Shown one piece after another: positions 18,681-55,779 of a stretch of DNA of 64,000 nt. Made by a program: the position numbers and the translations under genes. The stretch is from a virus. Below the pieces are notes generated by a model. That model did no database searches, was not told where the DNA came from, and saw nothing but the letters and a program-made list of their open reading frames with translations. Location: the IMG/VR virus record IMGVR_UViG_3300008107_000023, positions 30,912-94,911 of that record, one strand, 5' to 3'. Each line of letters starts with the position of its first letter. Position 1 is the first letter of the stretch.

Positions 18681-21600
18681 ATGGACAAATTTCTAAGCGG
18701 AAGAAAATCTCAGTTAAATGTTGGTGTAAGTTCTTTTACAGAGAATAACACTGTAATTACAACTATTGGTAGGGTTGGTATAAAAACCAATAATGCTTCT
18801 TCTGATTTAGAAGTTTTTGGTACAGCAAAGGTTTCTGGAATAGCGACTTTTGGTTCTGGGAATACAGTTACTCTTGACGGAGATGGTGGAGAGATAAGAA
18901 TTGGTTCTGGTATAACCATTACCAATACAACATATAAAACTGGTAGCAGTTATTTGGACCCATCAGCTCTTGCTGCAAATACTGTACTCACAAATTTAGT
19001 TGAAACAACTTCAGTACAATCGACAAATATTGTTGCTACTGGTGTTGGTACTATTGGTACTCTTTCTGTAGATACTTTAACATATGGTGTTGGTATTGCA
19101 AATACCTTACAAGGATATGAATTAAATTATTCGGTCGGAATTATAACTTCTTTATCTGGATCAGGATTAGAATATAACGTAGGAATTATTACAAACTTAA
19201 CTGGAGTAAATGCAAATTATTCTGGTATTTCTACTTTACAAAATCTAAGGTCCGCTGTTGGTGTAGTTACCAATATTTCAGGAACGTTTTTAACCTATAG
19301 TGGAGTTGGAACTTTTGGAAGTATAAATGCAACTTCCGTTGGACTTAGTTCGGATATTTATGCATCTATTGGTAATTTTGGTGTTGGTATAATTACAACA
19401 ATAAGTGGCATAGGATTGTCATATTCAGATGGATATATTGGTAAAATAAATGGACAAAACCTAAATTATTCAGGTATTTCCACAATTAATACTCTAACTG
19501 GAGAAAATCTAAACTATTCTGGAATTGGAACAATTGATACCTTATCTGGTACAAATATCAATTATTCTGGTGTTGGAAGTGTTACAACGTTAATTGGAGA
19601 GAACCTAAATTACTCTGGTGTAGGAACAATATCCAGATTAATAGGTACAGATTTGTATTATTCTGGGGTAAGCACATTATCAGATTTAAGAGGATCTAAT
19701 CTATCTTATACTGGTATAGGAACAATATCCTCACTAAATGGTGTAGATATAAACTACAGTGGAATAGCGACATTTGCAAGCGCAGATATACCAACTCTTA
19801 GTGGAGATCAAATAACCTATAATAATGCAAACTTTACATCTGTTGCTTCGACAGATATTGTAATAAGTGGAATTGCAACAATTTCTACACTTGAAGGATC
19901 AACATTAAATTATACTGGATTAAGTACAGTATCAAATCTTAAAGGATCTGACATAGAGTATGTTGGAGTAAGCACATTAGCATATTTAAATGGAACAAAT
20001 CTAAATTATTCTGGTGTTGGTACTGTCGCAGATTTAAATGGCACTAACATAAACTACAGTGGAATAAGTAGTTTTGCAACGATAAATGGTACAAATTTAA
20101 ATTATTCTGGTGTTGGTACAATATCTCAATTAAAAACAACTGATATTGAAAATGTTGGCATTTCTTCACTAGATACTTTAAGAGGAACAAATCTAAACTA
20201 TTCTGGAATTGGAACAATCGATACCTTATCTGGTACCAATATCAATTATTCTGGAATAAGCACACTCCAATACTTAGAAGGAACTAACATAAATTATTCT
20301 GGTATTGGTACTATTGCAACTCTTAACAGTACCACAGCAAATATTTCTGACATTAGCGGAAGTACTTTAAATTATTCTAGTGGAACAGTAACCACATTAG
20401 ATGGAGATACTGCAACATTTTTAGAAGGATCCTTTGACGACGTAACGACAATAAATTTAAATTCCTCTGGAATTGGAACTATTCCAGAACTTAAAGGTAC
20501 AAATTTAGAATATGCTGGAATTGGATCTATTGCAAATATAATTGGGACTAACTTAAATTATTCTGGTATAGGTACAATTTCTAGCATATCCGGTACAGAT
20601 ATTAACTATTCTGGTGTTGGAACATTTACAACATTAAATTCGTCAGATATTAATGTTTCTGGATTTGGAACTATTCCAAACCTAACAGGTACTAACATTA
20701 GTTACTCCGGAATTGGAACGATTTCCAATTTAAATTCCGATGATTCAAATATTGCATATGTGAGGGGAACCAACTTAAATTATTCTGGTGTAGGAACTGT
20801 TTCAACTCTATTAGGAACAAATGTTAAGTACACTGGTATCGGAACTATAGATTCCTTGTATGGAACGAATATTGACTATTCTGGAAATGGAAGTATCCAA
20901 AATCTAAATGGTACAAATTTAAACTATTCTGGAATTTCAACGGTCAATGAATTGTTTGCTACAGACTTCACACTATCTGGAGTTGCAAGTATTAGTAGTT
21001 TGAGAGGAAATACTTTATATTATGATAACACATTTTCTAATGTTGGTCTAATTACCGAAATTTCAGGTACTAATTTAGAGTATATTGGTGTTGGTACTAT
21101 AATCAATTTCAACGCAACAGACGCTAATATACAGGCTCTAAGGGGAACTGATATTAATTACTCTGGAATATCAACACTAACAAACCTGAATGGTACAAAT
21201 ATCAACTATTCTGGTGTAGGTACAATAACAAATTTAAGTGGCACTAATTTAAATTATTCTGGAATTGCTACGGCAACAATTATTAATTCTGTCACAGGAA
21301 TAATTACAACCGCACAAATTCAAACCATATCTGGAACAGACTTAAATTATTCTGGAGTGGGCACAATTGGTAACGTTAAAGTTGGATTTGGCAATACAAC
21401 TTTAATTGTTACTGGAGATGCTAGAATAAGTGGAGTCTTAACAGTTGGATCAGGATCAGTAACAATAAATGGCATTTCAAACGTTTTAAGTGGTGTATCA
21501 ACATTTAATGCAAATTCTGGAATTATAACAACATTAAGTGGTATACAAGCAACTTACGACAATTTAATCTTAAACAATGACTTAAAATTTATTGGAATTA

Positions 21601-24600
21601 ACACTCAAACAAGTGGAATTAATACTTATAGATTTGTTGGATCTGCAGCAACTAATTCACAATCATACACATTAACTCTGCCTCCAAACTTAGGAATTCC
21701 TGGACAAGTTTTAACACTAAATCCTGGAGGAAGATTATCATTTGAAAATACTGGTCTTTATGAAAATAGAATTTATGTTTCGACTGCAAACGGTAATGAT
21801 GCAAACGACGGTAAAGCAGCTCCAGTTGCTACACTCAAGAGAGCGGCACAATTAGCATCGTTTGAGTCATTTGTATTACCTGGCGGAAGATATTTAGATG
21901 CTGCAAATTTACTTGAGGCAAATAAAGAATTCATTAAAGCAGAGGTTATTGGGTTCACAACAACTACATACCCAGCTCTTCTTACAGATCCACAATATGA
22001 TGAAACTACTTGCAAAAGAGATATTGGATATATTGTAGACGCAATAGTTTATGACCTATCATATGGAGGTAATTCAAAGACCGTTCAGGCAGGTTTAGCA
22101 TATTGGAATGCTGGAACTAGTTATGTTGCTGGAGAAACAACAGAAACAGTGGCGGCATATCGCTATATTATCGACATTTCAAAATATATCATTAATAATG
22201 TTGGAATACCAACAACTTATCAAAATACAATATCCCAATCATTTGATTTAACTCTTGCATATGATGATTCATGCAATCCAAATGCATATAGTGAAAATTG
22301 TTGTGCAGATGTTTGGAGTGCAATTGGATCTTATGTTGGTATTGTTACTAGCATTATTGGTATTGGAACAACAGCTGCTCCTTCTGTTACTTTACCTACG
22401 GTAAAATCAAATCCAGTATGCATTTTTGTTGAAGCTGGAGAGTATGTAGAGGACAACCCAATTCTTCTTTATGAAGACGTAGCAGTTGTTGGAGACAACT
22501 TAAGAAATACTATTATACGACCATTAAATGCCGGAAAAGATTTATTTAGAGTTAGAAATGGTTGCTATGTGACAGGATTCGCAATGAAAGATTATGTGGA
22601 TGCCGCTGGTATTCCACAATATACTTTTGATTATGCTGTTGCATTTGACGATCCTGCAGACTCAACTGCTTCAAGAACTGGATACGCAGTCAAAACAACA
22701 AAACCAATTATTACAAGATCTCCATACATCCAAAACTGCTCTATCTTATCATTCTTAGGTGGAAATGGTATTTTAGTTGATGGATCTAAAGTATTAACTC
22801 CAAATACAGCAATTATACCTGAAGAAGCTGAAAATCCTGTAATTGGTCCACAACCAGAATTTGGTAAGTCCATGGTTGCTAATGCATTTACCATGGTTTC
22901 GTTTGGTGGAATTGGTTGGCGTGTTATTAATGATGGATATTCTCAGGTTGTTTCTTGCTTCCAAATCTTCTGTCGTTATGGATCACTAGCTCAGTCTGGT
23001 GGATACTTGTCAATCACAAACTCTGCGACTAACTTTGGATATTATGCCCTCAAATCAACAGGATTCAATCAAAGATCCTATGTGTTTGATAGAGGTATAG
23101 CTGCTGCAACAGGTACAAGTGGTGGTCTTCAGACCTTGAAAGTTATTGGTTTAGGAAGAACAGATCAAGAACTTTATGTTCTAAGATTCTTTGACGGAAA
23201 TAATATAGATCAAACATCCGCATTTAAACAAGCAGTAGTCTCAAAAACTGTTAATATTGCAGTTGGTGTTAACACAACAACAGATACTATAGGTATTGCA
23301 AGTCATGGATTTACGCAAGGAGATAAAGTAGTATATCTAGGACATGAAGGTGTAATACCTGCTCAAGTAATTGGTGGACTCACAAACCAAAACGAATACT
23401 ATGTAAGGTTTGTTGATATTGATAACTTCCAACTATGTGAAGACGAGAGCTTAACAAGGTTAGTAGATTTAACTTCTGTCACAACAGGTATTAATACTTT
23501 CCAAAAAGGAAATCAAGAATTCTTTAATTATGAAACAATTGACACACATAGATCATATCAAAGAATTGGTATTGCTTCTACATCGAGCACTTTAAATTTT
23601 GTTCCAGGAAGACAAGTAACTCAGTCTGTTAATGGTGGAACAGCAGTAGGATATGCATATACCTACAATAGTTCTTCAAGAGAACTGATAGTTTCTGTTG
23701 AAAAGGTTGGAGGAATAAGAAATAATTTTGGTGTTACTGGAATTGGAACCAATTCTACTATTTTAGATCATAGTGGATCTCCAGTATCAATTGCAATAAC
23801 CTCAGTAACGGGAATAACTACATTCTGCACCATAGAATTTAAGGTCGATTCTACAGAAACAGGGAATCAAATATTGAATATTGCAAACCTTGTAGAAGAT
23901 TATAAAATTCATTTCCATAGACCCTCTATTGTCAACTCTTCTTCTCACACCTGGGAATTTTCGGGATCAGGAATTGATTATAATGCATTACCACAAAATG
24001 GTGGCAAAACAGATCCAGCATCTGAGCAAGTTTATTCTCTTGGAGGAAGAGTTTATACTTCAGGAACAAATGAACTCGGAGACTTTAAGATTGGTCAGTT
24101 TATTGTTGCATATAACAGAACTGGAAATATTGTATTCAATAATAAAGTCTCTATTGGTCAGTTAGATTCTCTTAGATTAAGTCTTTCTGGTGGCGTTGCT
24201 ATTGAAGAATTCTCTACAGATGTGGGACTGGGAGATAATGAAATTGGAGGTCCATTAGACAGTCGTGTTTCAACACAAAAAGCAGTTCGTTCTTTCCTGA
24301 ACAATAGACTTGGCGACTTTATCGATAAGTCAGTTTCAACTAATGCTGTCCCAAGTTCTATTGTTCAACTAAATTCTATTGGTCAAATTAATCCGGATCT
24401 TATACCACCTAAGGTTGTTAACTACTATAGGGCAAATGTTTCTGGCGGAAGAACTACTTTAGTTGATCAAATTCCAGCAATTAATTTGGCAAATGGTGAT
24501 ACTGTAATTGAACCCGATAGTGGATATGTTCTCATATCCGACGTATATGGTCAGTATTTAATTTTAAATAACAACACAAGAAATTATAACTTCCAAAATG

Positions 24601-27600
24601 GAGATATAGTTACGAGTACAACATCTGCGGGTGGTGCCATTGGTATTGTTACCACACCAACTTCGGTTGGATATGGAACAACTGGACTTGTTAAAGGTGT
24701 GTTGTTAACAACAACCAGTTTGGTTGGAGGATCTGGATATACAAATCCAGGAATTTATACTGGCGTAACACTGAATAGTATTACTGGAATTGGAACAAGT
24801 GCAAGAGCGACGATTACAGTTGGTGGTGGAGGAACTGTCACAAGTGTCGATATTGATTATGGTGGAAGAGGATATGTTCAGGGAGATAGTCTAACTGTAA
24901 ATAATCCGGTTTTAATTGGTGGTAGAAGTGGTGGATCTGATTTTACAGTTTCTGTCAATACTGTAGAAACTAGACTTTATTTGAAGTTAACAAATAATCA
25001 GAAATTCCCAGGTTCGAATTTAATTACAGATTATATTGAAGATAGAGATGCTGTTGGTATAGCAACTACTGTAGCAGCAAATTATTCAGTGACATTTGAT
25101 CCAACCGATTTTTCTACTGGTGGCGATATAGACTTTGCAAATGACAGGATTATTGTTGGTGTTACAAGTTTTGCCGATGGAGATCCAGTTGTTTATTCTA
25201 CAGGAGGTGGAAATCTTTTAGGAGATCTGATTAATGGTACGACATATTATGTCAAAAAGGTTGGAATCAGTTCTGTTGAACTTTATACAACTTATGCACT
25301 TTCTACTAAGAAAGACCTAGCTACTAGCGGAACAGGAACTCATTCCCTAACGAGAAGAGGAGTCAATGTTGATACTGATCAGATAGTATTTGTAAATCAT
25401 GGGTTTAGTGTTGGTGATGCAGTAAGAGCTAGTGGTGCAACCCCAACAGGAATCAATACAAATAGTTTCTACTTTGTCGGATCTGCAACAACCAACTCAT
25501 TTACACTACATACAACACAAGCAGCATCTTTAGTATCGATTAATGGACTTCTTTATAATCCAGTTAATATTACTGCAGTTCCTTCTTCTGGATTTGTAAC
25601 ATTCACAAAACAAAATGTTGCATATGAGTCAACCGTAAATACTTCTTCTGCTGATCCAAATAACTGGAGTATTCTGGCATCGGGTAGTATTGACGCTGCA
25701 AACATAACCAGTGGTACAATCTCACCAACAAGATTGGGTAGTGGAAGTGCAAACTCAGATACATTCTTGTCCGGAGACTCTAGTTACAGAAAAGTAGTAA
25801 AATCCGTAGGAATTGCAACGACCGAACCAGTAACCATTGTTGGTTCTAGTTTTGAATCCGCTTCTGGAGTTACAACACACTATGGAGATTTAAATTTGAA
25901 ACTAAACAGAGTAGAGCAAACTCTAGATAGTTTCTCAACTCTTGGTGTATCTAAGTTTAAAACTTCAACTTTCAGTATAGGTGACGACGGACAAGTTTCT
26001 ATTAAAAATTCTGCAACGGGTGATGTTGATGCTGCAACTTTAGGTGGACAATCTGGATCATATTATCTCGACACGAACAATTTAGTTGGAAATATTCCTA
26101 TCACAAAGGGTGGAACTGGATTATCAGCTCTTCCATCAGACGGCGCAATTCTTGTTGGAAATGGTTCTGCATATGAATTAACAACGAATCCTTCAATTGG
26201 TGGAACCGTAACTGCGTCTTTTGCAGTTCCTGCAAACAAAGATATTATATTTACATCAGGAACTTGGACAGGTGAAAAGGCAGCAAAAATTCAGTATTCT
26301 TCAAATAACCTATACTTACAGTTTACTAGCAACTTAATTGCAAGAAACTCTGTTGGAACAAACAGACTTACATTAGATTCTTCTGGAAACGTTTCTATTG
26401 GTGGTTCAATATCAGCAACAACTATACATTCCACAGTTTCTACTGGAACTGCCCCATTAGTTGTTAGCTCAACAACACAGGTTACAAATTTAAATACACA
26501 ATATCTTAATGGGTATTCTTCTTCGGCATCAGCAACTTCAAATACTATTGCACTAAGAAATGCAACTGGAGGATTAGTTGCTGCTGATATCACTGGAACT
26601 ACAGGAGCATTTACTGACAACGTTACCATATCTAATCCTGCATCATTGTCGTTTGGATCTGCCACTAGACAGATGCTTAATCTTTGGAGCACCGATTATG
26701 GATTGGGTGTACAAAGCAGTACATTATACTTTAGATCTGCTTCTAGATTCTCTTGGCATCGTGGCGGATCGCATAGTGATAGTCAGAATGATCCAGGATC
26801 TGGTGGTTCCGTAGCAATGACACTAGACAATTCCAGCAATCTCACGATAACTGGAACTGTTGAAGGTACAAGATTAATTTCTAATATAGCATCGGGAACT
26901 GCTCCACTTACAGTAACTTCAACTACACAAGTTACAAATCTGAATGCTTCATATCTTGAAGGATACGTGACAGATACTGCAAATACAGCAAATAGAATTG
27001 TTAGAAGAGACTCTAATGGAGATTTTGCTGCAAGAACAGTAACTGCAACTTTATCAGGAAATGCTACTGGTGTTGGAGCAACATTTACTAATGGAAACTT
27101 TACCAATGTTTATACAAATAATGCATATGCCAACGTTGGTATAATAACTGCAGTTAGTGGAACAAACTCAAATTATTCTGGCATATCAACAGCATCTCAG
27201 TTTGTGTCTACAGTTTCCACAGGAACTGCTCCACTAGTTGTTAGCTCAACAACACAGGTTACTAACCTAAATGCTTCTCAGTTAGAGGGGTATGTTACTG
27301 ATACTGCAAATACTGCAAATAGAATTGTTAGAAGAGACGGTTCGGGCAACTTTAGTGCTGGATCTGTTACAGCATCTGGTTTAACTTTAAATGGTTCTGG
27401 ATCAACCAGTTCTGCTCAGTTAACATTTAGTGGAGCAACAAACAATTGGATAAACTTTGGTACAACTGGTGTTGCTGCTCCTGCATTTACAACAAGAAGT
27501 GCCGGCACTAAGATCGTTCTTTATAACAATATTGCAGCTTCTGCAGTAGATTATGCATTGGGTATTGAAGGATCCACATTGTGGAATTCTGTTCCAACAA

Positions 27601-28220
27601 CTTCTGAACAATTTAAGTGGTATGGTGGCACTACTTTAGCAGCAACTTTGACTGGTGCTGGTGCATTTAGTGTGGCAGCATCGATAACTGTTCCTTCAAC
27701 AGATAGAGCTTTTGAAGTTAATGCTTCCGGTGGCGTTTCTCTATTCTCTAATGAGATTAATGCAGGTGCTTTGGGTGGAACTGGAAGCTTGTACTTTGGA
27801 TATAGAAGAACCAGCAATCTTTATTTTGGTGCAAGTGGAAATTGGGGAACATGGCAATCTAGTGGTCTAACAATCACTGGAGCATTAAATGCAACCACAA
27901 AATCTTTCGTAATTCCACACCCAACTAAAGAGGGAATGACTCTACGTTATGGATCTCTTGAAGGTCCAGAAAACGGAGTATATGTAAGAGGAAAATCAAC
28001 AGAAACCGTGATTGAACTTCCAGATTATTGGACAGAACTTGTACATGACGATAGTATAACAGTATCTTTAACCCCAATCGGTAACAGTCCGACTCCAAGA
28101 GTCTTAAAGATTGATAACAATAAAGTTTACGTATTTTCAAAAGAAAATGGTCCAATTGAATATTTCTTTGTTGTTTATGGTGAAAGAAAAGACGTTGAAA
28201 GACTAATAGTTGAATATTAA
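18681..28220 (+). CDS. Giant tail fibre-like protein, 3179 residues
   Basis: Parts in order: an N-terminus with GRVGIKTNNASSDLEVFG; residues about 115-900 made of some 45-50 copies of a 16-residue unit (core GTNLNYSGIGT); a beta-helix domain at about 1030-1480 (RIYVSTANGNDANDGK, YVEDNPILLYEDVAVVGDNL, RSPYIQNCSILSFLGGNG); beta-rich linkers with GITSG/Gly-Tyr modules (GGSGYTNPGIYTG, GGRGYVQGDSL) near 2000-2100; three copies of GTAPLVVSSTTQVTNLN near 2590-2880, each followed by a QYLNGY or LEGY-like motif; and a C-terminal domain PHPTKEGMTLRYGSLEGPEN with ELPDYWTEL, seen in other cyanophage fibres. It spans 9.5 kb and is the largest gene here. It likely forms long trimeric fibres. No chaperone domain is present, so folding may need another protein. 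Confidence 0.82.
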   Translation: MDKFLSGRKSQLNVGVSSFTENNTVITTIGRVGIKTNNASSDLEVFGTAKVSGIATFGSGNTVTLDGDGGEIRIGSGITITNTTYKTGSSYLDPSALAANTVLTNLVETTSVQSTNIVATGVGTIGTLSVDTLTYGVGIANTLQGYELNYSVGIITSLSGSGLEYNVGIITNLTGVNANYSGISTLQNLRSAVGVVTNISGTFLTYSGVGTFGSINATSVGLSSDIYASIGNFGVGIITTISGIGLSYSDGYIGKINGQNLNYSGISTINTLTGENLNYSGIGTIDTLSGTNINYSGVGSVTTLIGENLNYSGVGTISRLIGTDLYYSGVSTLSDLRGSNLSYTGIGTISSLNGVDINYSGIATFASADIPTLSGDQITYNNANFTSVASTDIVISGIATISTLEGSTLNYTGLSTVSNLKGSDIEYVGVSTLAYLNGTNLNYSGVGTVADLNGTNINYSGISSFATINGTNLNYSGVGTISQLKTTDIENVGISSLDTLRGTNLNYSGIGTIDTLSGTNINYSGISTLQYLEGTNINYSGIGTIATLNSTTANISDISGSTLNYSSGTVTTLDGDTATFLEGSFDDVTTINLNSSGIGTIPELKGTNLEYAGIGSIANIIGTNLNYSGIGTISSISGTDINYSGVGTFTTLNSSDINVSGFGTIPNLTGTNISYSGIGTISNLNSDDSNIAYVRGTNLNYSGVGTVSTLLGTNVKYTGIGTIDSLYGTNIDYSGNGSIQNLNGTNLNYSGISTVNELFATDFTLSGVASISSLRGNTLYYDNTFSNVGLITEISGTNLEYIGVGTIINFNATDANIQALRGTDINYSGISTLTNLNGTNINYSGVGTITNLSGTNLNYSGIATATIINSVTGIITTAQIQTISGTDLNYSGVGTIGNVKVGFGNTTLIVTGDARISGVLTVGSGSVTINGISNVLSGVSTFNANSGIITTLSGIQATYDNLILNNDLKFIGINTQTSGINTYRFVGSAATNSQSYTLTLPPNLGIPGQVLTLNPGGRLSFENTGLYENRIYVSTANGNDANDGKAAPVATLKRAAQLASFESFVLPGGRYLDAANLLEANKEFIKAEVIGFTTTTYPALLTDPQYDETTCKRDIGYIVDAIVYDLSYGGNSKTVQAGLAYWNAGTSYVAGETTETVAAYRYIIDISKYIINNVGIPTTYQNTISQSFDLTLAYDDSCNPNAYSENCCADVWSAIGSYVGIVTSIIGIGTTAAPSVTLPTVKSNPVCIFVEAGEYVEDNPILLYEDVAVVGDNLRNTIIRPLNAGKDLFRVRNGCYVTGFAMKDYVDAAGIPQYTFDYAVAFDDPADSTASRTGYAVKTTKPIITRSPYIQNCSILSFLGGNGILVDGSKVLTPNTAIIPEEAENPVIGPQPEFGKSMVANAFTMVSFGGIGWRVINDGYSQVVSCFQIFCRYGSLAQSGGYLSITNSATNFGYYALKSTGFNQRSYVFDRGIAAATGTSGGLQTLKVIGLGRTDQELYVLRFFDGNNIDQTSAFKQAVVSKTVNIAVGVNTTTDTIGIASHGFTQGDKVVYLGHEGVIPAQVIGGLTNQNEYYVRFVDIDNFQLCEDESLTRLVDLTSVTTGINTFQKGNQEFFNYETIDTHRSYQRIGIASTSSTLNFVPGRQVTQSVNGGTAVGYAYTYNSSSRELIVSVEKVGGIRNNFGVTGIGTNSTILDHSGSPVSIAITSVTGITTFCTIEFKVDSTETGNQILNIANLVEDYKIHFHRPSIVNSSSHTWEFSGSGIDYNALPQNGGKTDPASEQVYSLGGRVYTSGTNELGDFKIGQFIVAYNRTGNIVFNNKVSIGQLDSLRLSLSGGVAIEEFSTDVGLGDNEIGGPLDSRVSTQKAVRSFLNNRLGDFIDKSVSTNAVPSSIVQLNSIGQINPDLIPPKVVNYYRANVSGGRTTLVDQIPAINLANGDTVIEPDSGYVLISDVYGQYLILNNNTRNYNFQNGDIVTSTTSAGGAIGIVTTPTSVGYGTTGLVKGVLLTTTSLVGGSGYTNPGIYTGVTLNSITGIGTSARATITVGGGGTVTSVDIDYGGRGYVQGDSLTVNNPVLIGGRSGGSDFTVSVNTVETRLYLKLTNNQKFPGSNLITDYIEDRDAVGIATTVAANYSVTFDPTDFSTGGDIDFANDRIIVGVTSFADGDPVVYSTGGGNLLGDLINGTTYYVKKVGISSVELYTTYALSTKKDLATSGTGTHSLTRRGVNVDTDQIVFVNHGFSVGDAVRASGATPTGINTNSFYFVGSATTNSFTLHTTQAASLVSINGLLYNPVNITAVPSSGFVTFTKQNVAYESTVNTSSADPNNWSILASGSIDAANITSGTISPTRLGSGSANSDTFLSGDSSYRKVVKSVGIATTEPVTIVGSSFESASGVTTHYGDLNLKLNRVEQTLDSFSTLGVSKFKTSTFSIGDDGQVSIKNSATGDVDAATLGGQSGSYYLDTNNLVGNIPITKGGTGLSALPSDGAILVGNGSAYELTTNPSIGGTVTASFAVPANKDIIFTSGTWTGEKAAKIQYSSNNLYLQFTSNLIARNSVGTNRLTLDSSGNVSIGGSISATTIHSTVSTGTAPLVVSSTTQVTNLNTQYLNGYSSSASATSNTIALRNATGGLVAADITGTTGAFTDNVTISNPASLSFGSATRQMLNLWSTDYGLGVQSSTLYFRSASRFSWHRGGSHSDSQNDPGSGGSVAMTLDNSSNLTITGTVEGTRLISNIASGTAPLTVTSTTQVTNLNASYLEGYVTDTANTANRIVRRDSNGDFAARTVTATLSGNATGVGATFTNGNFTNVYTNNAYANVGIITAVSGTNSNYSGISTASQFVSTVSTGTAPLVVSSTTQVTNLNASQLEGYVTDTANTANRIVRRDGSGNFSAGSVTASGLTLNGSGSTSSAQLTFSGATNNWINFGTTGVAAPAFTTRSAGTKIVLYNNIAASAVDYALGIEGSTLWNSVPTTSEQFKWYGGTTLAATLTGAGAFSVAASITVPSTDRAFEVNASGGVSLFSNEINAGALGGTGSLYFGYRRTSNLYFGASGNWGTWQSSGLTITGALNATTKSFVIPHPTKEGMTLRYGSLEGPENGVYVRGKSTETVIELPDYWTELVHDDSITVSLTPIGNSPTPRVLKIDNNKVYVFSKENGPIEYFFVVYGERKDVERLIVEY
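19020..21370 (+). repeat. Long array of degenerate 48-base coding repeats
   Basis: Roughly 45-50 imperfect units of 48 bases encode x-L-x-G-T-N-L-N-Y-S-G-I-G-T-I-x, with the TNLNYSG core best kept and the two positions around it most variable. The strict 16-residue period points to one solenoid turn, or one strand-turn pair of a trimeric fibre, per unit. The count is by eye. Confidence 0.85.
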
Positions 28221-30721: not shown

Positions 30722-31156
30722 ATGGCATTGATTAGAGACTTTGAAATTCCTGGAAGTGGACTTGTTGTAAATGATGCATATCATATTATAGTAAATGTTG
30801 CCACAGAAAAAAGACTTAGTGATATTTTACCACCACCAGATCCCACCCAACCAAGTGGTCTGAGTGTTAGAGACGATACGGATGAATCTCAATTTGTTTA
30901 TTGGAAATCTGGATACATTGGAAGAATTGCAATTGAGGTTTATTCTTCAAAGCAAGCAAGAACTGATGGAAAAAAACCAATAGGAGCCTTGGCAACTTCA
31001 CCAACTGAAGTGAACGTTGATTGTCAATTTGCAACGTCTGGCAAAGACTTTAAGGTTTTATTCTTCATAGATCCGGATAGTCCCGATTCTATTTTAACCC
31101 AGGCATATAATCACCTGAAAACTACAGAATATTATAAGGATGCTATAGAAGACTGA
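30722..31156 (+). CDS. Conserved small protein of the fibre operon
   Basis: The 144-residue product begins ALIRDFEIPGSGLVVNDAYH with IIVNVATEKR, followed by a proline-rich loop (DILPPPDPTQPSG), YWKSGYIGRIAIEVYSSK and DFKVLFFIDPDSPDSI. It starts four bases after the S74 fibre stop. I have seen similar proteins beside fibre genes of marine T4-like phages, without assigned function. The beta-rich middle and its position suggest a fibre- or baseplate-associated virion protein. Confidence 0.65.
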   Translation: MALIRDFEIPGSGLVVNDAYHIIVNVATEKRLSDILPPPDPTQPSGLSVRDDTDESQFVYWKSGYIGRIAIEVYSSKQARTDGKKPIGALATSPTEVNVDCQFATSGKDFKVLFFIDPDSPDSILTQAYNHLKTTEYYKDAIED

Positions 31157-49558: not shown

Positions 49559-51267
49559 TTATTTTTAAAACTATCAAGTGGCAGAATTTTTTGAGTACAG
49601 GAAATCAATTTACCAAAATTGATTTTACCAAAAACTCAACAAATTTAATAATTGGATCTAATGGAGCAGGAAAAAGCACCGTTCTTGATGCACTTACTTT
49701 TTCTTTGTTTGGAAAACCATTTCGCAAAATTAATAAACCACAACTTATCAATTCTACAAATGATAAAGATTGTAGAGTAGAGGTTGAGTTTGATATTGGA
49801 AATATTTCTTGGAAAGTTGTAAGAGGAATCAAACCAAATATTTTTGAAGTTTATAGAGACGACCTTTTGCTGGATCAATCTGCCGCTGCTTTGGATCAGC
49901 AGAAGTGGTTGGAGCAAAATGTTCTTAAAATGAACTACAAGTCCTTTACCCAAATTGTTATTTTGGGGTCAAGTACTTTTGTTCCCTTTATGCAACTTCC
50001 AGCATCTCACCGCCGTGAAGTGATTGAGGATCTTTTAGATATTAAGATTTTTTCTTCTATGAATCTTGTGATTAAAGAAAAGATCCGATCTATTAAGGAA
50101 GAAATTAAAACTCTTGAACTTAAAAAAGAATCTCTTAATGATAAAGTTAAAATGCAAGAAGACTTTATTGAAGAGTTGGAAAATCGTGGTAATGCCAATA
50201 TAAACGCTAATAAAGAGAAGATTGCCAATCTTGATAGGGAAGTTGGTGTTTATATGGTCGATAATGCTGTAGTAGAAGATGGATTGTGTACTCTACAAAA
50301 AGAACTTGAAGATTATGTAGGTGCTACAGATAAACTCCGTAAGTTGGGAAATCTAAAAGGTAAGATATCGCAAAAAGTATCTACTATTACTAAAGAGCAT
50401 AAGTTCTTCACCGAAAATACGGTATGCCCTACTTGTACACAGTCTATTGAGGAGACCTTCAGAATAAATAGAATTAAGGACGCTCAAGATAAAGCAAAAG
50501 AGTTGCAATCTGGTTATAAAGAACTAGAGGAGGCAATTAAAGAGGAAGAAGAGAGAGAGCGTCAATTTAATACTCTATCGAAGGAGATTTTAAACTTAAC
50601 GAATGGCATTTCTCAAAACAATATTAAGATTAATGGATTGCGAAAGCAAATCAGAAATCTTGAACAAGAAATTCAAGTTCTTACCGAGAACCTTGCAAAC
50701 AGAAATTCTGAACATGAGAAGTTAGAATCCTTCAAAGACAATTTAAAAACTACATACGACGAACTCTCTTCTAAAAAAGACGCAATTAACTATTACGATT
50801 TTTCGTATAGTCTACTTAAAGACGGTGGAGTAAAATCCAAAATCATTAAGAAGTATTTGCCACTCATCAATCAGCAAGTTAATCGCTATTTGCAAATGAT
50901 GGACTTTTATATTAACTTTACTCTTGATGAGGAATTTAACGAAACCGTTCAGTCTCCTATTCATGAAGATTTCTCATATGCTTCTTTTAGTGAAGGAGAA
51001 AAAATGAGAATTGACCTAGCACTTCTTTTCACATGGAGAGAAGTTGCAAGAATGAAGAATTCTGTTAATACAAATCTTCTGATTATGGATGAGGTTTTTG
51101 ATTCTTCACTTGATGGATTTGGGACTGAGGAGTTCCTTAAGATTATTCGTTACGTTATTAAAGACGCAAATATTTTTGTTATTTCTCACAAGACAGGACT
51201 TGAGGACAAATTTGAAAGTGTAATAAAGTTTGAGAAAATTAAAGGATTTAGTAGGATGGTTGTATGA
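49555..51267 (+). CDS. gp46: gp46 recombination nuclease subunit (Rad50-like)
   Basis: The 570-residue SMC-type ATPase has Walker A IIGSNGAGKST (32-42), long coiled coils from about 170 to 400 with a zinc hook CPTCTQS near residue 294, the ABC signature FSEGEKMRIDLALLF and Walker B LLIMDEVFDSSLDG. T4 gp46 has 560 residues. It works as a complex with gp47. Translation is coupled on both sides (ATGA overlaps). Confidence 0.96.
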   Translation: MIIFKTIKWQNFLSTGNQFTKIDFTKNSTNLIIGSNGAGKSTVLDALTFSLFGKPFRKINKPQLINSTNDKDCRVEVEFDIGNISWKVVRGIKPNIFEVYRDDLLLDQSAAALDQQKWLEQNVLKMNYKSFTQIVILGSSTFVPFMQLPASHRREVIEDLLDIKIFSSMNLVIKEKIRSIKEEIKTLELKKESLNDKVKMQEDFIEELENRGNANINANKEKIANLDREVGVYMVDNAVVEDGLCTLQKELEDYVGATDKLRKLGNLKGKISQKVSTITKEHKFFTENTVCPTCTQSIEETFRINRIKDAQDKAKELQSGYKELEEAIKEEEERERQFNTLSKEILNLTNGISQNNIKINGLRKQIRNLEQEIQVLTENLANRNSEHEKLESFKDNLKTTYDELSSKKDAINYYDFSYSLLKDGGVKSKIIKKYLPLINQQVNRYLQMMDFYINFTLDEEFNETVQSPIHEDFSYASFSEGEKMRIDLALLFTWREVARMKNSVNTNLLIMDEVFDSSLDGFGTEEFLKIIRYVIKDANIFVISHKTGLEDKFESVIKFEKIKGFSRMVV

Positions 51268-52052
51268 TCGGAATTATTGGAAATGGGTTTGTTGGTAACG
51301 CAGTATATCAAAATTTGAAGGATAAAGTTTCCTGTAAAGTATACGATATTGATATTCGCAAATCCCCAAACACTCTTGATGAAGTTTTAGAGCAAAATTT
51401 TATTTTTGTTTGTTTGCCAACTCCTATGAAATCTACGGGAGAGTGTGATCTTTCAATATTAGATAATTTTTTTAATTGCCTACCAAAAAATATTGAGAGT
51501 ACATTTATTGTAAAATCTACAGTTCCTGTTGGAACAACTAAAAAATATTCGCAAAAATATAATGTTATCCATAATCCAGAATTTTTAACTGCAAGAAATG
51601 CTGTAGAAGATTTTAAAAATTCCGAAAGAAATATTGTTGGGGGCAAAAAAGAATTGTGTGAAAATTTTGTAAAATTATTTGAAAGTCTATTTCCACATAT
51701 TCCAAGTATCATAACAACTTCCGACGAAAGTGAATCTATTAAGTATTTTTCTAATACCTTTTTGTCGCTTAAAGTGGCATATTTTAATAAAATGTATGAT
51801 TTTTGTGAAAAGCATGGTATGAATTATGACGTTGTTTGTGGTGGTGTTATTTCCGATAGTAGGATAGGTAAATCTCATTCTAAGGTTCCTGGTATTGACG
51901 GAGATAGAGGTTTTGGAGGAACCTGTTTTCCTAAAGATCTTAATTCCCTCATAATTCAAATGGAATCGGTCGGTCTTGACGCCAGTATGCTAAAATCGGT
52001 ATGGTCCTACAATCAGCAGATTCGTCAGGTCATAGACTGGCCTGTTACTTAA
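51264..52052 (+). CDS. Short UDP-glucose 6-dehydrogenase-like protein
   Basis: The 262-residue product has the Rossmann motif GNGFVG (6-11), a CLPTP motif, KSTVPVGTT, NPEFL, the catalytic-type Lys (about 170, FLSLKVAYFN) and the active-site Cys in GFGGTCFPKD (Cys221). UDP-glucose/GDP-mannose dehydrogenases oxidise the sugar nucleotide to the uronic acid. Bacterial enzymes have around 390-450 residues; this one lacks the C-terminal UDP-sugar-binding domain but keeps the catalytic Cys. Similar short forms occur in marine myoviruses. It is coupled to gp46 by ATGA. The substrate is uncertain without the third domain. Confidence 0.85.
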   Translation: MIGIIGNGFVGNAVYQNLKDKVSCKVYDIDIRKSPNTLDEVLEQNFIFVCLPTPMKSTGECDLSILDNFFNCLPKNIESTFIVKSTVPVGTTKKYSQKYNVIHNPEFLTARNAVEDFKNSERNIVGGKKELCENFVKLFESLFPHIPSIITTSDESESIKYFSNTFLSLKVAYFNKMYDFCEKHGMNYDVVCGGVISDSRIGKSHSKVPGIDGDRGFGGTCFPKDLNSLIIQMESVGLDASMLKSVWSYNQQIRQVIDWPVT

Positions 52053-52274
52053 ATGAACACTCCAAATTGGCAGCATCACTCCAAGAAAGAACAGAAACGA
52101 AAACTTAAACCGCAAGCACTGAGGCAAGCGAAAGCACGACTCGCCCAGTTCAAAAAGCGTCACATGGGTCGCCCAAAAGGCGACCTTTCGTTTTATTGTA
52201 GGTCCATACGAAACAAAACTGATGCCTGTTCGCCACGAAATCAAGTCTCAACTTGCAAAACTACTTGCTACTGA
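52053..52274 (+). CDS. Possible small basic protein
   Basis: The ATG follows the dehydrogenase stop directly; 73 codons. The first 42 residues are strongly basic (KKEQKRKLKPQALRQAKARL, then AQFKKRHMGRPKG). The later part runs through a terminator-like hairpin and overlaps the start of the VWA gene by 53 bases in another frame, with a Cys-rich, low-quality end. Either a short nucleic-acid-binding protein or an incidental frame; I lean slightly to a real gene because of the N-terminal composition and junction. Confidence 0.4.
   Translation: MNTPNWQHHSKKEQKRKLKPQALRQAKARLAQFKKRHMGRPKGDLSFYCRSIRNKTDACSPRNQVSTCKTTCY
52166..52194 (+). terminator. Hairpin with interrupted T tract
   Basis: A seven-base stem GGTCGCC / GGCGACC with loop CAAAA is followed by TTTCGTTTT. 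It lies between the dehydrogenase and the VWA gene, inside the possible basic ORF. It probably ends the gp55-gp46 transcript. Confidence 0.65.
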
Positions 52275-54411
52275 AGATCTAGTAGTTGAGCACAAAAAAG
52301 TTTCTACTGCTTGCTTCAATGTTCATACTCGTGTTCTGACTCTTCCCTTGTGGGAGAAAGCAAGTGGTCTTGTGTATGACCTTCTAGTGGGACATGAAGT
52401 TGGACATGCTCTTTTTACTCCAGATGAAGACTGGTTGGAGAAAGTGAAAGTCCCTCAGCAGTTTGTCAATGTTGTTGAGGATGCTCGCATTGAGAAACTA
52501 ATGAAGCGCAAGTATGCTGGACTTGCAAAGACCTTCTACAATGGATATAAAGAACTAAATGATGAGGATTTCTTCCAGATCAAAGAAGAAGATATTTCCA
52601 AGTTCAATCTTGCAGATCGTGTGAACTTGTGGTTCAAAATTGGCAACTATACGTATGTGCCAATTGAACGTGGTGAAGAGACTGAGATTATCAATCTAAT
52701 TGCCGATACAGAAACTTTTGCTGATGTTCTGATTGCTGCAGAGACACTTTATAATTATTGTAAAAAAGAAAAAGAACAGCAGCAAAAAGTTGCTGACTTT
52801 GATTCTCATGAGCAGCAAGGAAATTCCCAGTCTCCTTCCAATGAGATTGTAGAAACTAATGACTCTTCTTCTGAGCAAGATGGGGAGAGTGATAACTCAC
52901 AACCTAAACAGGATGATGGGTCCTACGGTGGAACTGCTCAGGGAGACCAAACTCAAGTAAAATCTTCTGGTGAAGAAAGTGAACCAGAAGTTCGTACTGC
53001 AGATTCATTGGAAGAAAAAATTCGTGATCTTGTTGGAAATGATGTATATGAGAATACTTATGTAGAAGTTCCTCAACTCAATCTGGATACTGTTATTGGT
53101 AAAAATTCTGAGGTTCATAAGGATATTGATAATTCATTTAATCACCAGCAAAAACTCCACAATGAGTGGGCTGTTGAGAAAAAAATTATTCCAACAAATC
53201 TTTATAATGAATCTGATATTGAGTTTCGCAAGTTCAAATCTTCCGCTCAAAAGGAAGTCAATTATCTTGTAAAAGAGTTTGAGTGCCGTAAGGCAGCAGA
53301 TCAGTATGCTCGCGCATCAACTGCTCGCACTGGTGTTCTCGATACTGCTCGTCTCCACACTTACAAATACAATGAAGACTTGTTCAAAAAAGTTTCTGTG
53401 ATTCCCGATGGAAAGAATCATGGTCTGGTATTTGTATTGGATTGGAGTGGTTCTATGGCAGAAGTAATGCTTGATACTTGCAAGCAACTCTTCAATCTTG
53501 TTTGGTTCTGTAAGAAAGTTTCCATTCCCTTTGAAGTGTATGCTTTCACTAATGAATGGCGTCGTGGTGAGTATGATTACGAGAAAGATCGTTATGTTGC
53601 AGCTGATAGAACTCCTCATTATGAAAAGAAAGAAAGTCTCTTAATCGTAGATGAAACTTTTTCTATGATGAATATTCTTACTAGCAAAGTTTCTGGTAAA
53701 GAAATGGAGCACCAACTTCTCAATATTTGGCGTCTTGCATATTGTTTCGCACGGCAATATCATTCTCATTATACTTATCCCAATCGCATGTGTCTTTCTG
53801 GCACTCCATTGAATGAGGCATTGATTTCTCTTCACCAAATTCTCCCTAAGTTTCAGAAGGAAAATAAACTGCAAAAAGTTCAGTGCATTGTCCTGACTGA
53901 TGGTGAGGCAAATCAACTTACTTATCATAGAGAAGTAAAGCGTGATTGGGAAAAAACTCCTTATCTTGGTAGTGGGTATGTAAATCCCCATAGCACTTTT
54001 CTTCGAGATCGTAAGCTTGGAACTACATATCAAATTGATTATGGGTACCATACTTTTACTGATACTCTTCTCAAAAATTTAAAGGATAAGTTTTCCTCTA
54101 CTAATTTTATTGGTATTCGGGTTCTTGGAGCTGGTTCTGCTAATCGTTTTATTAGTCTTTATCACTCTCAACTGGATAAGCAATATGAAAAAATCCAGAA
54201 TGACTGGAAGAAACTGAAGAGTTTTACTATTACAAATTCTGGATATGATGCTTACTTTGGAATCTCTGCAAATGCACTATCTCAAGATAGTGAATTTGAA
54301 GTTGCAGAATCTGCTACAAAATCTCAAATCAAATCTGCTTTTGTTAAATCTTTTAAGACCAAAAAACTAAATAAGAAAGTTCTTGGTGAATTTATTTCTT
54401 TGGTGGCATGA
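52222..54411 (+). CDS. VWA-domain protein with HExxH site, CobT-like partner of the AAA+ ATPase
   Basis: The 729-residue product has a zinc-peptidase-type HEVGH (58-62) in LLVGHEVGHALF, followed about 20 residues later by VVEDARIEKLMKRK, the layout of CobT-like/VWA metallopeptidases. The middle (200-270) is acidic and low-complexity. The C-terminal half is a von Willebrand A domain with an intact MIDAS motif DWSGS (407-411), and a later CIVLTDGEAN strand. In the cobaltochelatase pattern, a VWA subunit works with an AAA+ subunit; here the CobS-like gene lies 250 bases downstream. A MoxR/CobS-type remodelling pair is a better reading than cobalamin synthesis because no chelatase large subunit is near. 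Whether the HExxH site is catalytic is unknown. Confidence 0.82.
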   Translation: MPVRHEIKSQLAKLLATEDLVVEHKKVSTACFNVHTRVLTLPLWEKASGLVYDLLVGHEVGHALFTPDEDWLEKVKVPQQFVNVVEDARIEKLMKRKYAGLAKTFYNGYKELNDEDFFQIKEEDISKFNLADRVNLWFKIGNYTYVPIERGEETEIINLIADTETFADVLIAAETLYNYCKKEKEQQQKVADFDSHEQQGNSQSPSNEIVETNDSSSEQDGESDNSQPKQDDGSYGGTAQGDQTQVKSSGEESEPEVRTADSLEEKIRDLVGNDVYENTYVEVPQLNLDTVIGKNSEVHKDIDNSFNHQQKLHNEWAVEKKIIPTNLYNESDIEFRKFKSSAQKEVNYLVKEFECRKAADQYARASTARTGVLDTARLHTYKYNEDLFKKVSVIPDGKNHGLVFVLDWSGSMAEVMLDTCKQLFNLVWFCKKVSIPFEVYAFTNEWRRGEYDYEKDRYVAADRTPHYEKKESLLIVDETFSMMNILTSKVSGKEMEHQLLNIWRLAYCFARQYHSHYTYPNRMCLSGTPLNEALISLHQILPKFQKENKLQKVQCIVLTDGEANQLTYHREVKRDWEKTPYLGSGYVNPHSTFLRDRKLGTTYQIDYGYHTFTDTLLKNLKDKFSSTNFIGIRVLGAGSANRFISLYHSQLDKQYEKIQNDWKKLKSFTITNSGYDAYFGISANALSQDSEFEVAESATKSQIKSAFVKSFKTKKLNKKVLGEFISLVA

Positions 54412-54593
54412 AACAAAAATTTCCATTTGAACACGTATTAAAATACGATACTAAAGAAGTGTGGGTTAAATGCTCTAGTAGCATAACTGCTATGGGCATT
54501 CCCGCATTGGTTAAAAAGTATTATCCAGGATATGTTGGGAGAATTGCTACACAGGAGTACTTGGATCAACTGAGGAACCAGTTGGCGAACTGA
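54408..54593 (+). CDS. Small protein between the VWA and CobS-like genes
   Basis: The 61-residue product starts in the VWA stop (ATGA). It has a beta-type N-terminus (FEHVLKYDTKEVWVKCSSS) and a helical part (GIPALVKKYYPGYVG, then TQEYLDQLRNQLAN). No family recognised. Its position in the same transcript suggests a helper of the VWA/AAA+ pair. Confidence 0.6.
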   Translation: MKQKFPFEHVLKYDTKEVWVKCSSSITAMGIPALVKKYYPGYVGRIATQEYLDQLRNQLAN

Positions 54594-54598
54594 CCACT

Positions 54599-54622
54599 GG
54601 GGGGTTTAGATCCCCCCTTTTT
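54599..54622 (+). terminator. Intrinsic terminator after the VWA operon
   Basis: A six-base GGGGGG/CCCCCC stem with a seven-base loop TTTAGAT and a T5 tail, five bases after the preceding stop. Confidence 0.85.
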
Positions 54623-54632
54623 GCCCTATAAT
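54605..54632 (+). promoter_or_regulatory. Sigma70-like promoter before the CobS-like gene, overlapping a terminator
   Basis: TATAAT at 54627-54632 follows the terminator; the best -35 is TTTAGA (54605-54610) in the hairpin loop, spacer 16. The -10 is perfect, the -35 is poor, so strength is uncertain. Distance to the ATG is 25 bases. Confidence 0.6.
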
Positions 54633-54657
54633 AACAGAGTCAAAACAAAACAAATCA

Positions 54658-55779
54658 ATGTCTCTTTCCTCTGATTACATTCGCACTTCTCTCCAAGCAC
54701 TTTATGGAAATAATGTTACTAGTGCAGATATTCGTGCTTGGTGTAATATGAATGATGCAAACTATCAGACTGTAACTAAGAAAATTGATAATTTTAAAAC
54801 TTCTCGTGGTAAATGGAATCTTGAAGTAACCCAACAAAAAGTGGAAGAAATCGAACGTTCTTATCAAGCTCCTGCCGTCCTCCCTACTGTAGAACAGAGT
54901 CTTATTCCTACTAAAGATGATACCTTCGTCAAGTTTGGTAATTTTAACGATATTAAAAAAATTATTCAGTCCCGTCTTTTTTATCCTACGTTCATTACGG
55001 GTCTTTCGGGTAACGGTAAAACGTTCAGTGTTGAGCAAGTTTGTGCTCAACTGAAACGTGAACTGATCCGTGTAAACATTACTATTGAAACTGATGAGGA
55101 TGACCTGATTGGTGGGTTCCGTCTCGTCAACGGCGAGACTGTGTGGCATAATGGTCCAGTGATTGAAGCACTAGAGCGAGGAGCAATTCTCCTTCTTGAC
55201 GAAATTGACCTTGCCTCTAACAAAATCCTTTGTCTTCAATCTGTACTTGAAGGTAAAGGTGTATTCCTTAAAAAGATTGGTAAATATGTCAGTCCTTCTG
55301 CTGGTTTCAATGTGGTTGCTACTGCTAACACTAAGGGAAAGGGTAGTGATGACGGACGCTTTATCGGAACCAATGTCCTCAACGAAGCATTCCTTGAGCG
55401 GTTCCCTGTGACCTTTGAGCAGTCCTATCCTTCTCCAGCAACTGAGCAGAAGATCCTTGAGGGTGTCGCTCTGGACCTTGGCGTGGAGGATCGTGACTTC
55501 TGCAAGCGCCTGGTGGACTGGGCAGACATTATTCGTAAGACCTTCTATGACGGTGGTATTGAGGAAATCATTAGCACTCGCCGCCTTGTGCATATCATTC
55601 GCGCTTACAGTATTTTTGCTGACAAAGCAAAGGCAATCCAAGTGTGTGTGAACCGATTTGACGACGAAACCAAGCAAGCATTCCTTGAACTTTACGATAA
55701 AGTGGATGCCGACTTCCAAATGCCTTCTACTAGTCCCGAACTGACTGTAGAATACGTTGACCAACCTACCTCTTTCTGA
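54658..55779 (+). CDS. cobS: CobS-like AAA+ ATPase
   Basis: The 373-residue MoxR/CobS-type ATPase has an N-terminal helical domain (1-70; SADIRAWCNMNDANYQTVTK), Walker A GLSGNGKT (115-122), an ETDEDDLIGGFRLVNGET loop, Walker B GAILLLDEIDLA (175-186), a sensor-1-like VVATANTKGKG and an arginine-finger region LERFPVTFEQSYP. Genes of this kind are usually annotated cobS in marine T4-like phages and assumed to help cobalamin synthesis. The VWA/HExxH partner just upstream makes a general protein-remodelling complex equally likely. Confidence 0.88.
   Translation: MSLSSDYIRTSLQALYGNNVTSADIRAWCNMNDANYQTVTKKIDNFKTSRGKWNLEVTQQKVEEIERSYQAPAVLPTVEQSLIPTKDDTFVKFGNFNDIKKIIQSRLFYPTFITGLSGNGKTFSVEQVCAQLKRELIRVNITIETDEDDLIGGFRLVNGETVWHNGPVIEALERGAILLLDEIDLASNKILCLQSVLEGKGVFLKKIGKYVSPSAGFNVVATANTKGKGSDDGRFIGTNVLNEAFLERFPVTFEQSYPSPATEQKILEGVALDLGVEDRDFCKRLVDWADIIRKTFYDGGIEEIISTRRLVHIIRAYSIFADKAKAIQVCVNRFDDETKQAFLELYDKVDADFQMPSTSPELTVEYVDQPTSF

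Follow-up and report, generated by a model that had tools for sequence, protein, structure and literature searches.

A CobS-type ATPase and an HExxH/VWA protein as a conserved gene pair of T4-like cyanophages, more likely a remodelling or protease machine than a vitamin B12 enzyme

For two decades, cyanophage cobS has been taken for a vitamin B12 gene. In the stretch of DNA analysed here (the window: 64,000 nucleotides, positions 30,912 to 94,911 of IMG/VR virus record IMGVR_UViG_3300008107_000023, a T4-like cyanophage contig of 94,911 bases), a cobS gene encoding a CobS/MoxR-type AAA+ ATPase lies close to the gene of a VWA protein with an HExxH site. We find that the two genes are universally paired in T4-like cyanophages and pelagiphages, that the putative metal site of the VWA protein is invariant among phages, and that related pairs recur on other mobile elements. 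A remodelling or protease machine is more likely than a B12 enzyme. Specifically, we give a probability of about 0.6 to the reading that the pair is a two-part, ATP-driven machine of this kind, probably of early or middle timing, acting most likely on a replication or recombination complex, not in cobalamin synthesis and probably not on the virion.

Results

Conservation of the pair

Among annotated phages, 463 records contain the VWA protein and 462 contain the ATPase at a coverage of at least 80%; the record counts for the two genes were identical in Synechococcus (365), 'Cyanophage' (61) and Prochlorococcus (24) phages. We regarded a VWA locus as testable for pairing if it had at least 2 kb of downstream sequence. 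Both genes were present in all 120 such loci, which come from T4-like cyanophages and pelagiphages, and in 119 of them cobS lies downstream on the same strand, within about 2.4 kb of the VWA gene. One locus (L145) was rejected as an exception to the pairing, as its cobS is about 30 kb away on the same contig. Distances between phages for one protein track those for the other (r 0.93 between the distance matrices, 29 phages), which is expected from the shared phage phylogeny and so is not independent evidence.

A preliminary description of this DNA, made from the sequence alone, had reported a VWA protein with HExxH and an intact metal-ion-dependent adhesion site (MIDAS) near a CobS/MoxR-type ATPase, and had asked whether every cyanophage cobS has such a partner. 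Both open reading frames (ORFs) are as described, and the pairing held throughout the testable loci. The 61-residue ORF that it placed between the two genes is also there, but its relatives occur in only three phage records, in one of which (S-IOM18) the relative is about 20 kb from the pair, and we rejected it as a third component. The sequence between the two genes varies, with nothing in Syn19, a methylase in S-BM3 and three ORFs in P-SSM2; thus the 61-residue ORF is incidental, and we take it to be a small mobile or drifting gene.

Two further observations concern the sampled loci. The L145 contig carries a 645-residue ORF (L145:1294-3231) that by eye resembles a class II ribonucleotide reductase. 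Cyanophage-type VWA genes were also found in genome bins assigned to Bacteriovorax, Euryarchaeota, Rhodopirellula, Chloroflexi and other taxa (L152-L165); these are apparently phage contigs binned under the wrong organism.

The metal site, the MIDAS and the motor

HExxH was present in all 138 N-terminally complete copies of the VWA protein, and because it is kept in every one it is not a chance occurrence. In an alignment of 35 diverse copies, with 28-85% identity to the window protein, residues H58, E59, H62, N83, E86, D87 and R89 were invariant. When bacterial homologues at about 20% identity were added, the invariant positions were these seven and G100 only; the bacterial homologues had been retrieved by a pattern containing N83, E86, D87 and R89, so that only HExxH is unbiased for that set. 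The HExxH and downstream acidic ligand of zincins thus have their counterparts in H58, E59, H62 and E86, the last as a putative ligand.

Modelled alone with AlphaFold, the N-terminal domain gave a predicted local distance difference test (pLDDT) score of 90.3 and a predicted template modelling (pTM) score of 0.85. In the model, the helix that bears HExxH is followed by the one that bears E86. Its nine best fold matches in the PDB, namely ArdC, selecase, abylysin and PprI, were all of zincin type, with weak E values of 0.11 upward; the predicted viral structures that it matched were phage 'CobT' and VWA proteins. Searches of PDB sequences with the VWA profile and with the N-terminal profile returned nothing usable. 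The domain is likely to be zincin-type, with a predicted peptidase activity.

The MIDAS consists of DWSGS (residues 407-411), T528 and D560, of which D407, S409, S411, T528 and D560 were invariant in the 35-sequence alignment. The best PDB match of the VWA model was the NorD VWA domain in the NorQD complex. Walker A and sensor 1 were present in 125 of 125 ATPase copies, and among solved structures the ATPase is closest to the midasin AAA domains (E 1e-46), CobS, NorQ and CbbQ. Two sequence hallmarks of a MoxR AAA+/VWA co-chaperone system were found: a MoxR-clade AAA+ protein with Walker A, Walker B and sensor 1, and a VWA partner with a complete MIDAS encoded nearby. The third conserved component that accompanies MoxR-vWA in the VMAP/iSTAND/FtsH ternary conflict systems (Kaur et al. 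2020) was not found beside the pair, and PADLOC returned no match for the VWA protein, the 61-residue ORF or the ATPase.

Comparison with CobS and CobT

The pair shares several features with the cobaltochelatase subunits CobS and CobT (TIGR01650/TIGR01651, PF06213/PF11775). The AAA_5 motor is common to both systems, and canonical CobT resembles the phage protein in its N-terminal helix motif, acidic linker and MIDAS-bearing VWA domain. Canonical CobTs in which the region could be recognised have an EQARVE-type motif at the position of the phage EDARIE, and the N-terminal profiles of the two aligned in hhalign at E 4e-5 and probability 69. We compared the N-terminal and VWA parts separately, having discarded a whole-protein hhalign comparison that was dominated by the acidic linker.

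The two systems also differ. Against TIGR01650, the CobS equivalog model, the ATPase scored 68.3 bits where the cut-off is 558.55, while the VWA protein had no match to TIGR01651, the CobT equivalog, and only a sub-threshold one to PF06213 (E 0.49). HExxH was absent from all 30 canonical CobTs retrieved. In the VWA-domain tree, the canonical CobTs group together with support, far from a second clade made up of the cyanophage, pelagiphage and Ochrobactrum proteins. Under midpoint rooting, CobT falls within the HExxH-bearing proteins, and the site would then have been lost once; the position of the root is uncertain, as are several long branches.

We found no CobN in 11 phage records, which include the complete genomes of HTVC008M, P-SSM2, Syn19 and S-BM3; the record that holds the window is a 95-kb fragment. 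The lack of CobN stressed in the preliminary description is thus borne out for the phages but not for their hosts, since CobN is encoded in 117 of 121 picocyanobacterial genomes; an interaction with the host cobaltochelatase, which it named as a ground for refutation, may therefore occur in cyanobacterial hosts. None of the 121 has a CobS over the cut-off. The sole CobS-type and VWA matches among them are adjacent on one Prochlorococcus contig, with cyanophage-like similarity in phage-looking sequence, so the pair was not copied from host genes. Outside cyanobacteria, hijacking of CobN is contradicted by E. coli: an SSU5-type HExxH-VWA/AAA+ pair lies on plasmids of 34 E. coli genomes, and the control genome of this species gave no CobN match. 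The pair is also present in Pelagibacter phage HTVC008M, whose host is not known to make cobalamin.

As a separate observation, among 142 alphaproteobacterial genomes, 36 of the 77 with a canonical CobT over the cut-off showed no CobN/BchH-type match, the completeness of these genomes being unrecorded. In the control set, Caulobacter vibrioides has CobT and lacks CobN. Canonical CobST may have a role independent of CobN.

Relatives on phages, plasmids and islands

An HExxH-VWA gene lies beside a CobS-type ATPase gene in SSU5, ICP2, Ochrobactrum phage OC, Microcystis phage Mae-Yong1326-1, CRP-810, a Cobavirinae phage, Haloarcula virus HCTV-16, Rhizobium phage RHph_Y2_11 and, apparently, Bacteroides phage BS162P1. 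Of the 3,190 plasmid records hit in a search with a Methylobacter homologue, 2,724 are conjugative; some of the hits do not extend across the HExxH domain. The plasmids that we read have AAA+, DUF3150 and HExxH-VWA genes near genes for ssb, bet or RecT, lambda-type exonuclease or toprim. Clusters of this kind on IncC, IncHI2 and other plasmids lie at L242:1798-9791, L244:3067-7711, L245:728-7753 and L246:3324-9860. These plasmids and related islands resemble the cyanophage locus in having the CobS-type AAA+ and HExxH-VWA genes in one cluster; they differ in the extra DUF3150 gene, in the ssb/bet/exo or toprim genes and in their very distant sequence. HExxH was present in 17 of 17 mobile-element proteins checked and absent from the canonical CobT control. 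The combination of HExxH with VWA had been called unusual; it is instead a recurring design, shared by phages, plasmids and genomic islands. We rejected the 'CobS-like' ATPases of Staphylococcus Kayvirus as relatives because they have no VWA neighbour.

Gene context and expression signals

In T4-like phages, gp47-gp46 lie upstream and gp45-gp44 downstream of the pair. Similar company is kept elsewhere: ssb-bet-exo on an IncC plasmid and an island, RecT-exo, DNA ligase/DNA polymerase in SSU5 and RHph_Y2_11, and primase/polymerase in ICP2 and Cobavirinae. A consensus match to a sigma-70-like site lies 5' of cobS. The late-promoter motif TATAAATA was not found near the pair; elsewhere in the window it lies ahead of the genes for the tail sheath stabiliser and the head scaffold. 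Because TATAAATA occurs 4 times in the window against an expectation of 9.1, and so shows no enrichment, its position is weak evidence only. The main text of cyanophage expression papers yielded no transcript data for the pair.

Discussion

In the mechanism that we propose, the 'CobS' protein would form a MoxR-clade AAA+ ring and act as the motor, and the VWA protein would be the substrate adaptor, gripping the target through its MIDAS, with the zinc metallopeptidase-type N-terminal domain held near the motor by the flexible acidic linker. ATP hydrolysis would then remodel the bound target or expose a segment for cutting by the metallopeptidase domain. Both proteins would be made with the early or middle genes, and the target would be a phage or host protein complex tied to replication or recombination of the element's DNA. 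A motor and adaptor with a tethered protease-type domain is parsimonious in view of the CbbQO and NorQD relatives. CbbQ-CbbO, NorQ-NorD and RavA-ViaA likewise combine a MoxR AAA+ ring with a VWA adaptor, NorD being the best VWA fold match, although the substrates known for these systems are enzymes or membrane complexes. CbbO, which is the VWA partner in CbbQO, binds the target via its MIDAS, and the AAA+ ring gives the force (PMC4660213).

Several points weigh against this proposal. Whereas the domains, the invariant motifs, the pairing, the relatives and the gene context are observed, a physical complex, zinc binding, proteolysis, the timing and the substrate are inferred. E86 is a presumptive third metal ligand, placed by its invariance and helix position, and the best of the weak PDB fold matches to the N-terminal domain has E 0.11 and a probability of 0.80. 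Replication and recombination neighbours are common in early phage regions and may arise by chance. The CobN of picocyanobacteria makes a B12 role possible in such hosts.

The gene has a history in the literature. Sullivan et al. 2010 (PMC3037559) placed cobS in the cyanophage core, and papers on pelagimyophages and roseophages name cobS alongside cobT. Two published readings conflict, one of CobN hijack and the other, for other phages, of virion assembly. According to the first (Liu et al. 2021, PMC8651126), viral CobST hijacks host CobN: the pair would replace or supplement the ATPase and VWA subunits of the host cobaltochelatase, giving more cobalamin or pseudocobalamin for ribonucleotide reductase and methionine synthase. 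Besides being a published proposal, it draws on the homology to CobS and CobT and on picocyanobacterial genomes that have CobN and no CobS over the cut-off. We think it improbable, given family scores far below the cut-off, an HExxH site invariant in phages and missing from canonical CobTs, the distance of the window clade from CobT in the VWA tree, and relatives in E. coli, which lacks CobN, and in the Pelagibacter phage. The remodelling or protease machine is better supported because the residues of the putative metal site never vary, HExxH is missing from canonical CobT, and the ATPase falls far below the CobS cut-off; in addition, CobN is absent from the phages and also from a host species in which related pairs occur. 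The preliminary description had also preferred an AAA+/VWA remodelling or proteolytic system to a B12 gene, and that part stands; the virion complex that it offered as one possible target is unsupported by the gene context.

The second published reading comes from Iyer et al. 2021 (PMC7824862), who describe in group 2.2 jumbo phages a gene for a MoxR-type AAA+ protein next to one for a vWA protein with an N-terminal metallopeptidase domain, and propose a role in virion assembly. By that description the domain architecture is the same as in our pair, and the two-tailed Acidianus virus offers an archaeal precedent through its tail system; a machine that assembles or trims structural proteins would follow by analogy. 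The report and the virion proposal concern group 2.2, whereas cyanophages and the Ochrobactrum phage are placed in group 2.1, and the passages of the paper considered here do not identify the cyanophage cobS pair as such. We lean away from a virion role and hold it unlikely: the pair sits in the replication and recombination block, away from head and tail genes and from any late-promoter motif, and equivalent pairs occur on conjugative plasmids, which form no virions. The remodelling idea itself is close to the architecture and reading that Iyer et al. published for other phages. New here are the findings that the site is invariant across cyanophages and absent from canonical CobT, that plasmids and islands carry relatives, and that the context is one of replication and recombination; the kind of system is known, and its cyanophage member and context are under-recognised.

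Two other possibilities stay within the remodelling or protease mechanism or widen it. As a special case, the machine might serve host takeover or counter-defence by dismantling or cleaving a host complex, such as a nuclease or restriction complex, that attacks incoming DNA. Phages, phage-plasmids, islands and conjugative plasmids all face the same host barriers and all carry such pairs, bet/exo-type recombination genes are among the neighbours, and there is the weak fold match to the anti-restriction protein ArdC. That match is shared with other zincins, and the pair is a core gene set in T4-like cyanophages, unlike most counter-defence genes; we judge this a rather doubtful account. More broadly, and only tentatively, the AAA+ motor and VWA-zincin subunit might be a widespread mobile-element machine that extracts or cleaves DNA-associated proteins while phages, islands and conjugative plasmids replicate and recombine, with canonical CobT a later derivative in which the protease site has been lost.

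Ocean surveys score cobS as a B12 gene of cyanophages, and it serves as a core marker. Should the pair prove to be an ATP-driven protease or remodeller that major conjugative plasmids also have, ecological inferences from cobS would have to be revised, a core gene pair that is abundant in marine viruses would gain a testable function, and the related E. coli pairs would be a tractable laboratory model.

Features of the locus

Table 1. Features of the HExxH/VWA and cobS locus, in window coordinates
Feature	Position	Strand	Remarks
HExxH/VWA protein, 729 residues	52222-54411	+	phrog_459 'peptidase'; CobT-like overall layout, not canonical CobT
N-terminal zincin-like domain, residues 1-195	52222-52806	+	predicted model
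HExxH (HEVGH), residues 58-62, on helix 49-65	52393-52407	+	
NVVEDAR, residues 83-89, on the next helix after HExxH	52468-52488	+	E86, putative third metal ligand
Acidic linker, residues ~195-252	52804-52977	+	low confidence, predicted disordered
VWA domain region	53413-54408	+	DxSxS 53440-53454; T528 53803-53805; D560 53899-53901
61-residue ORF	54408-54593	+	overlaps VWA gene stop codon; not a conserved component
Terminator-like hairpin overlapping TATAAT promoter-like site	54599-54617; 54605-54632	+	directly 5' of cobS; consensus matches only
CobS/MoxR-type AAA+ ATPase, 373 residues	54658-55779	+	phrog_249; Walker A GLSGNGKT 55000-55023; Walker B LLLDE 55189-55203

Both genes had been catalogued previously, as PHROGs families cover them: the VWA protein matches its family with 880 bits, and the ATPase matches its own, annotated 'porphyrin biosynthesis', with 464 bits. 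The gene order in the window is late sigma factor gp55, gp47, an ORF, gp46, a UDP-glucose dehydrogenase-like ORF, the HExxH/VWA gene, the 61-residue ORF, the CobS-type ATPase, a DUF3310 ORF, gp45 and gp44. The dehydrogenase-like ORF between gp46 and the VWA gene (51264-52052, 262 residues, UDP-glucose/GDP-mannose type) matched the NAD-binding and central domains of its family, with no match to the C-terminal domain. By far the longest ORF of the window, at 3179 residues, lies at 18681-28220.

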